Part shown: in pieces, positions 63,054-64,000 of the stretch | Position numbering within the stretch: position 1 is the stretch's first letter | Layout of the letters: every line of letters begins with the position of its first letter | Source: Flavobacterium gillisiae | GTDB taxonomy: Bacteria; Bacteroidota; Bacteroidia; Flavobacteriales; Flavobacteriaceae | Direction of reading: 5' to 3' | Length of the DNA stretch: 64,000 bases | Assembly (NCBI RefSeq): GCF_900107635.1 | Contig: NZ_FNRD01000001.1 | Location: forward strand, 1 to 64,000 | The notes under the pieces: model-generated | What the model was told of the DNA's origin: nothing | Database searches by the model: none | Seen by the model: the letters and a program-made list of their open reading frames with translations, nothing else | Made by a program: the position numbers and the translations under genes

Positions 63054-63689
63054 ATGCCTTTATACAAAACGATACACTTTAGTTCTACAACACAAATTTT
63101 TGTTTGGAAAATCACCGAATCCTTCGAGCAATTAAACAACGAAGTACAATTAAACGACAAAAACTGTATTCGTCTTGAAGGAATGAAGTCAGAAATGCAT
63201 CAACGTGGTTTTCTAAGTGTGCGTAAATTATTGCAAACTGCCGGTTATACTGATTTTGATTTGTATTATGATGAATTTGGGAAACCACATCTAACAGACG
63301 ATAAATACATTTCCATCACCCATTCCCATAATTTTTCAGCCATTATTGTGAGTGATGAAACAGTAGGAATTGATATCGAATTGCAGCGCGAAAAAATCAT
63401 CCGTATTGCTGATAAGTTTGTCGATGAAGAGTTTGGGTATTTAGATAAAAATGATTTAGAAAGCTATATTAAAAAGCTGACTGTGATTTGGGGAGCCAAA
63501 GAAGCCATTTTTAAAATTAGAAACGAAAAAGGAATCAGCTTTAAAGACCATATTAAAGTCACGCCATTTAGCTTAGAAGATACAAAAGCAAAGGCTGTAC
63601 TTCATTTTGAGGGCGTAGTTCAGGATTTTGATTTGTTTTATGAGGAAATTGAAGGTTTTGGGCTTGTTTATGCTTTCGAGAAGATTTGA
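63054..63689 (+). CDS. 4'-phosphopantetheinyl transferase superfamily protein
   Basis: This 211-residue enzyme adds the phosphopantetheine arm from CoA to carrier proteins. The magnesium and CoA motifs VGIDIELQREKI and WGAKEAIFKIRNEKG are visible. It is the Sfp/holo-ACP synthase II-like size. It has no biosynthetic cluster nearby, so it may serve the acyl carrier protein of fatty acid synthesis or another target. Confidence 0.88.
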   Translation: MPLYKTIHFSSTTQIFVWKITESFEQLNNEVQLNDKNCIRLEGMKSEMHQRGFLSVRKLLQTAGYTDFDLYYDEFGKPHLTDDKYISITHSHNFSAIIVSDETVGIDIELQREKIIRIADKFVDEEFGYLDKNDLESYIKKLTVIWGAKEAIFKIRNEKGISFKDHIKVTPFSLEDTKAKAVLHFEGVVQDFDLFYEEIEGFGLVYAFEKI

Positions 63690-63739
63690 CGAGATTTGAC
63701 AACTTTTTAAAAGTTGTCAAATCTGAGTTGTCAAATCTA
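63681..63739. repeat. REP-like palindrome upstream of the RAYT gene
   Basis: A 33-bp palindrome (63692-63724) has arms AGATTTGACAACTTTT and its complement. An extra half-site AGATTTGAC lies before it (63682-63690) and an AGTTGTCAAATCT half-site after it (63726-63738). It overlaps the end of the phosphopantetheinyl transferase gene. Confidence 0.88.
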
Positions 63740-63767
63740 AAAATATACACAGATAAAACCCCAAAAC

Positions 63768-64000
63768 ATGGCAAAAAAGGAAGATTATTACACCCGATTT
63801 GAGAACGATGGAATTTATCATGTTTATAATAGAACAGTAGATCGAAAACCGATGTTTACATCTAATGAGAATTACGCTTATTTTATTCGTCAGTTCGATA
63901 AATACCTGTCTGATTATGTAAAAATTTATGCCTATAATTTGCTAGGGAATCATTTTCATTTTATGATAAAAGTTAATAATTTGGCAGATTTGACAACTTT
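63768..64000 (+). CDS. REP-associated tyrosine transposase (RAYT, Y1 family), 3' truncated by the window
   Basis: The first 77 codons are visible, starting MAKKEDYYTRFENDGIYHVY. HFH in NHFHFMIKV is the metal-binding HUH motif of Y1 transposases, which cut single-stranded DNA at hairpins; the catalytic Tyr lies beyond the window. RAYT proteins move or maintain REP palindromes. The final visible bases AGATTTGACAACTTT match one arm of the palindrome just upstream. Confidence 0.9.
   Translation, partial: MAKKEDYYTRFENDGIYHVYNRTVDRKPMFTSNENYAYFIRQFDKYLSDYVKIYAYNLLGNHFHFMIKVNNLADLTT

Follow-up and report, generated by a model that had tools for sequence, protein, structure and literature searches.

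The systems closest to the locus analyzed here are the TnpA-REP proteins of subclass 2.4 (Bertels group 4), which, according to the relevant passages of Quentin et al. (2018; PMC6006769), are abundant in Cyanobacteria and Bacteroidetes. The same passages report that REPs are inserted within the tnpA-REP genes themselves without disturbing the frame, generally between the HuH and Y motifs and at a position that is peripheral in a structural model; such in-gene REPs are called unique to subclass 2.4, the E. coli protein being placed in subclass 2.2. REP recognition has been described for RAYTs of other groups (excerpts of PMC8266576), and the sections of PMC3733652 consulted record REPs also inside other genes of several species. 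Palindromic coding repeats are treated in part of PMC2996958, and term searches of PMC2817692 and PMC3686654 gave no passage on in-gene copies. A looser parallel is offered by the palindromic elements of Rickettsia, which lie in frame inside coding genes (summarized in part of the review PMC10969869).

The window, by which we mean the whole stretch of 64,000 nucleotides from Flavobacterium gillisiae that was analyzed, ends within a RAYT-like gene that is preceded by a REP-like palindrome and contains a second copy of it. The features concerned are the following, with C18 coordinates referring to the contig as read beyond 64,000:

63054..63689, + strand: upstream neighbour, a gene of the 4'-phosphopantetheinyl transferase superfamily, which ends in the left half-site
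63682..63690, + strand: left half-site AGATTTGAC, seen in the sequence; in the folded DNA it is base-paired to the right half-site
63692..63724, no strand assigned: flanking palindrome of 33 bp, REP-like, AGATTTGACAACTTTTTAAAAGTTGTCAAATCT, seen in the sequence and in relatives
63726..63738, no strand assigned: right half-site AGTTGTCAAATCT, seen in the sequence
63768..64000, + strand, running on to C18:64421 outside the window: RAYT / TnpA-REP-like HUH-tyrosine gene, 217 aa
63986..64000, + strand: left arm of the palindrome inside the gene, in codons for ADLTT (full palindrome, C18:63986-64018)

As the original prediction had it, a 33-bp palindrome with half-sites precedes the RAYT-like gene, lying between this gene (start at 63768) and the 4'-phosphopantetheinyl transferase superfamily gene, and the last 15 bases of the window (63986-64000) equal its left arm exactly, in a frame reading ADLTT. 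The prediction had also guessed the bases beyond 64,000, and the contig agrees with that guess except at the centre: the full in-gene palindrome, AGATTTGACAACTTTCAAAAAGTTGTCAAATCT (C18:63986-64018), has TTTCAAAAAG at its centre where the flanking copy has TTTTTAAAAG. It reads DLTTF-KKLSNL, the peptide that had been anticipated, within an intact gene (...NNLADLTTFKKLSNLTTEKLSNQQK...) whose frame is still open at the window end and continues uninterrupted to 64421, a total of 217 codons. An additional right arm is found 24 nt further on (C18:64027-64041), and no downstream copy of the palindrome lies within 300 bases of the gene. The TGA stop of the upstream gene (63687-63689) is itself part of the left half-site; at the corresponding locus of another genome of the genus, G273 (L106, around 381-386), the open frame upstream likewise terminates in a palindrome.

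When folded as single-stranded DNA of the + strand, both the flanking copy with its half-sites (z = -10.2) and the in-gene copy (z = -7.6) are far more stable than their shuffled counterparts, and a strong mRNA hairpin is predicted at the in-gene copy (z -5.8). Allowing up to two mismatches, the arm occurs four times in the window against 0.56 expected, a number reached in 0 of 100 shuffles. The genome count that had been proposed along with the prediction returned four copies of the exact 15-mer arm, all at the RAYT locus (reversed control, 0). A chance match of the arm is ruled out by the window shuffles, this genome count and the survey of 398 genomes described below. Full palindromes number only two in this genome, both at the RAYT locus, and hence give no sign of current activity; no transposition was seen.

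The encoded protein is a RAYT (TnpA-REP-like), with the cleaving and joining of single-stranded REPs as its putative activity. The NCBIfam profile for REP-associated tyrosine transposases (NF047646) matches it with E 1.2e-14 (54.4 bits, below the cutoff of 80), and the Pfam Y1_Tnp profile also detects it below cutoff (20.4 against 23). The HUH motif (H62-F-H64) is encoded in the window and a conserved tyrosine, Y147, beyond the window end; the columns of H62, H64 and Y147 are identical in 127/127 aligned relatives, and, judging from the Y motif in Quentin et al. (2018), Y147 is probably the catalytic tyrosine. Structural comparison used a model not of the window protein itself but of a relative, L129, whose gene contains the same palindrome (model built from 37 sequences, mean pLDDT 93.4). 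Its best fold match is the REP-bound RAYT of E. coli (4er8_A; Z 15.4, rmsd 3.0, 153 aligned residues), with IS608 scoring well below this (Z 9.0).

These properties place the locus among several known systems. It resembles E. coli TnpA-REP/REP (PDB 4er8) in its fold, its HUH and tyrosine residues and the association of the gene with palindromes; however, the E. coli REPs are GTAG-tagged and bulged (excerpts of PMC8266576), whereas the window palindrome has no foot. With subclass 2.4, as characterized in the passages of PMC6006769, it shares the NH[IFV]H motif (here NHFH), an in-frame variable insertion between beta3 and alphaC, the occurrence in Bacteroidetes and a palindrome in frame within the gene between HuH and Y. 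The window protein has FQ at the putative WQ place and YINTNA for the YIxNNP tyrosine motif of that subclass. Furthermore, the REPs of subclass 2.4 are canonical long or 'double foot' forms with GT[AG]G, whereas GTRG or CYAC is present near the stem end in only 12/236 flanking palindromes in our survey; a search for GTRG/CYAC near either stem end found no such foot at the window copies. A canonical GTAG-type REP is thus ruled out, and we refer to the palindrome as REP-like.

As with RAYTs in general, the gene is flanked by a palindrome (upstream in the window, on both sides in G273, G380, G271 and G195) that is also found elsewhere, with dispersed copies in the relatives. The 'TIRYTs' (parts of PMC3733652) likewise combine a RAYT-like gene with flanking repeats without a GTAG tag, but their flanks are described as long terminal inverted repeats, whereas the flanks in the present case are short palindromes in their own right, a copy of which is also present within the gene. 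The TnpA proteins of the IS200/IS605 family (IS608, ISDra2) share the Y1 HUH transposase fold (Z 7.8-9.0), but belong to true insertion sequences with subterminal hairpins (passages of PMC6006769). The Rickettsia elements are about 150 bp long and lie in unrelated metabolic genes (parts of PMC10969869), in contrast to a 33-bp palindrome that lies in a RAYT gene and, at the 17 dispersed places checked, in no ORF of at least 100 codons.

The palindrome was sought in RAYT genes of other flavobacteria, as had been suggested, by means of a survey of 398 genomes of the genus, 145 of which, including the window genome, encode a relative with an E value of at most 1e-20. Relatives of at least 70% identity are present in only four other genomes, namely G273 (85%), G380 (78%), G195 (a split gene, 70% + 78%) and G271 (73%). 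All four have the in-gene palindrome in the same loop, at the offset of the window gene in G273, G380 and G195 and nine residues later in G271, and all four have palindromes both upstream and downstream of the gene. Together with the window gene, the in-gene palindrome is thus present in 5/5 window-type RAYT genes found. At up to two mismatches, the palindrome is detected in 24/398 genomes, at up to 12 places in one of them (G273), with the reversed control giving 0 in the genomes. In G195 (C65; L109:756-1012), there are five tandem in-gene palindromes with spacings of 57/55/57/57 nt and the RAYT frame is split, the split coinciding with the 55-nt step; this may reflect either the erosion of the gene by an expanding repeat or a faulty assembly of the metagenome bin.

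A wider survey comprised 134 loci: 51 from earlier relative searches, three stretches, and, out of the 522 relatives found with a window-led query, the 80 that matched best. Removal of L140 (on the same contig as L028) and of two identical proteins left 131 distinct proteins, and 127 entered the tree and the counts after L049, L051, L126 and L169 (short, or with no HUH found) were left out; the near-identical pairs L135/L137 and L034/L038, all without a palindrome, were kept. A loop hairpin was taken as REP-like if it scored at least 15 against its own flanks or at least 18 against the flanks of another locus. A flanking hairpin lies within 300 bases in 116/131 loci. A REP-like palindrome located 10-45 residues past the HUH motif, and ahead of the tyrosine, is found in 38/127 RAYT-like genes, a fraction that, being drawn from best matches, mostly of Bacteroidota, is biased as a measure of prevalence. 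These palindromes differ widely in sequence in the same loop: GTCGGCGTCGCTCAAAGCGACACCGAC in L050, types such as CTTTGTCAAAG in several loci of the window genus, and AACCTTGTCAAGG types in Chryseobacterium and Kaistella. The original prediction had counted RAYT genes lacking the match against itself; taken literally, such genes are in the majority (89/127), but the palindromes of several unrelated families in the same loop of the remaining 38 indicate that the feature recurs and is not coincidental. The in-gene palindromes of the genus relatives and of genes beyond the genus also rule out a one-off insertion in the window genome.

Five of these 38 genes have no flanking hairpin within reach. 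L130 and L131 have the flanking palindrome family of the window and intact genes with no in-gene copy, which implies that the latter is not needed for a RAYT with flanking palindromes. Loop hairpins in L052, L069 and L138, and a 24-bp one in L132, match no flank and were not counted as REP-like. Outside the loop, 24 hairpins were found, of which 10 belong to six genes with extra in-gene copies matching their own flank: behind the core in L153, L161, L192, L196 and L201, and at an apparently mis-called start in L055. The N-terminal hits in L029 and L055 look, from the sequence, like mis-called starts that run over an upstream palindrome. In the Saprospiraceae RAYT L161 (3576-3784), four tandem palindromes of its own type, 57 nt apart, lengthen the C-terminal part in frame. 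L170 has two in-gene palindromes of different families: the one in the loop matches its own flank and the other (residue 177, near the C-terminus) matches none. L129, on a contig binned as Thiomargarita, encodes a Bacteroidota-type RAYT; seven identical palindromes lie at most 200 bases from the gene and an eighth of the same sequence lies within it, reflecting either a wrong bin or a transfer.

This RAYT gene, next to a REP-like palindrome of 33 bp, carries a second, in-frame copy in the loop leading from the HUH strand to the next long helix, before the tyrosine, probably because the palindrome was copied there and has since been held at the DNA level. Copying into a tolerant surface loop is the most likely explanation of the data, in keeping with the option of an element inserted in the gene that the original prediction had raised. 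The self-recognition that it had also proposed finds no support in these results. The RAYT would act on the single-stranded hairpin and copy the palindrome preferentially near its own gene; as 33 bp correspond to 11 codons, the frame would be kept; and copies would persist only where the protein tolerates them and keeps working. The palindrome would then be held at the DNA level, either because it is copied anew from the flanks or because selection acts on the hairpin as DNA.

To assess the relationship between in-gene copies and flanks, each copy was compared with its own flank and with that of its nearest neighbour in a tree built by a quick method with the loop columns excluded. Among the 33 genes with a flanking hairpin, the own flank wins in 21, ties in 6 and loses in 6, a result partly helped by the criterion by which the 38 genes were selected; the three genes dropped by that criterion give a small win, a tie and a loss (own to neighbour, 9 to 5, 6 to 6 and 5 to 7). 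The six copies that match the neighbour's flank better speak against the copying proposed above, as do the five genes with no flanking hairpin within reach, the ordered helix modelled in the loop of L129 (see below) and the presence of only two full palindromes in the window genome. Where the neighbour has a palindrome of a different family (score 13 or less), the own flank is the better match in 12/13 cases, the single loss being L203, which is without a flanking hairpin of its in-gene family. On the tree, presence and absence of the palindrome require at least 23 state changes, as against a mean of 32.8 and a minimum of 26 in 500 shuffles. The codon phases of the 37 odd-length cases are distributed as 18, 17 and 2, compared with 17, 14 and 6 expected among open phases; with no clear preference, selection of a codon phase is rejected. 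The at least 23 changes and the three phases together fit several origins, the changes not distinguishing gain from loss, and the fact that they are fewer than in any of the 500 shuffles implies that inheritance also contributes.

Loop lengths provide a further view of the proposed insertion. Loops with a palindrome span 36-86 residues (median 48) and those without 24-85 (median 42), and the rise of the shortest loop from 24 to 36 is close to an 11-codon insertion. Over 31 pairs of genes with and without the palindrome, the median difference is +4 (23 positive, 8 negative), but it amounts to only 3, 1 and -2 in the three closest pairs, and a search among the nearest pairs turned up no clean empty site. 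In L070, a close relative of L064, the loop resembles at the same place a palindrome eroded by point changes in an intact gene; among genes without a palindrome, the loop match exceeds every control stretch in 11/78, so that only some show remnants. The nearest relatives lacking it could hold decayed copies, or the loop could be older than the palindrome; we read the sequences as suggesting past insertion, after which the palindrome decayed in certain lineages and was renewed or selected for elsewhere. Of 17 dispersed palindromes, picked from the listed places in nine genomes (L110-L125, with L125 truncated by the contig end), 0 lie inside an ORF of at least 100 codons, and an insertion into genes at large, of the kind known from Rickettsia, is accordingly not seen. 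Set against the 5/5 window-type RAYT genes, this makes random insertion with tolerance a less favoured account than copying, or selection, in the vicinity of the RAYT gene.

Selection for use is the strongest of the rival explanations: the in-gene palindrome might be kept as a self-marker, or for autoregulation, as a site at which the RAYT binds or cuts the gene or mRNA encoding it. In favour of this explanation, as of the copying described above, is the conservation of codons. Among eight genes of the window clade, shared residues have identical codons in 254/260 pairs inside the palindrome (127 expected by residue) versus 1658/2938 elsewhere; two other clades give 68/76 (52 expected) and 48/51 (36 expected), and three smaller sets with few codons point in the same direction (6/8, 32/44 and 6/8), with the proviso that the pairwise counts are not independent. 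This excess implies that the DNA itself is conserved and not just the peptide, and the strong hairpins predicted in mRNA and DNA and the presence in 5/5 window-type genes fall on the same side. However, re-copying from the flanks would yield equal conservation, 89/127 relatives do without the in-gene palindrome (L130 and L131 among them, although their flanking palindromes are of the same family), the apparently decayed copy of L070 sits in an intact gene, and other genes hold copies behind the core. We therefore regard selection for use as unlikely. Equally unlikely is a broader proposal, in which the in-gene palindrome is no passive passenger: the RAYT genes of this group would maintain a copy of their own target in the HUH-tyrosine loop and renew it continually. 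The target DNA, the coding sequence and the peptide of the loop would thereby change together across lineages, and the copy would act either as a control site that the RAYT addresses to itself or as a module for specificity.

It is far less probable that specificity is templated by the target, with the peptide written by the palindrome forming part of the surface that reads it, so that target and reader change together. In-gene and flanking palindromes do differ jointly between lineages, and in the model of L129 the residues that the palindrome encodes (about 71-81), after strand 62-69 and before the long helix 88-111, are not a floppy loop but include a short, confidently predicted helix (74-80; block pLDDT 93-94), such that the peptide is modelled as ordered beside the HUH strand. 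Yet the variable region lies at the periphery of the subclass 2.4 model, distant from the sites of DNA binding and catalysis (passages of Quentin et al., PMC6006769), the three codon phases yield different peptides, and many RAYTs have no in-gene palindrome. All genes of the window clade read the palindrome as DLTTFxKLSNL, or nearly so, although its distance from the HUH motif ranges from 10 to 45 residues. A similar pattern (LTTFxKLS, LQGFQNLE, FPKFETLE, LTGFRNLS), with a hydrophobic residue at about every third position, is encoded by phase-0 palindromes that differ in sequence; its cause may be either the symmetry of the palindrome or selection on the protein.

Finally, chance or a constraint on the protein, by which the residues DLTTFKKLSNL merely happen to yield a palindrome, has the conservation of the peptide within the clade in its favour, but its likelihood is negligible given the excess of identical codons (254/260 versus 127 expected), which rules out a peptide-driven palindrome, and the own-flank match in lineages with unrelated palindromes.

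The in-gene REP arrangement has been known since 2018 (passages of PMC6006769), and the window locus, where copying into a tolerant loop is the reading we prefer, is a well-supported new example of it and not a new phenomenon. As far as the passages of PMC6006769 and the literature listings show, the cognate matching, the codon test and the recurrence counts are new here. The dissemination of REPs is described as poorly understood (excerpts of PMC8266576), and genes that hold their own cognate palindrome constitute a built-in record, since the palindrome is set down in the flanking DNA and again in the protein. The conservation of the hairpin at the DNA level, in turn, makes the question of whether it is a passenger or a control site answerable by means of synonymous mutants.
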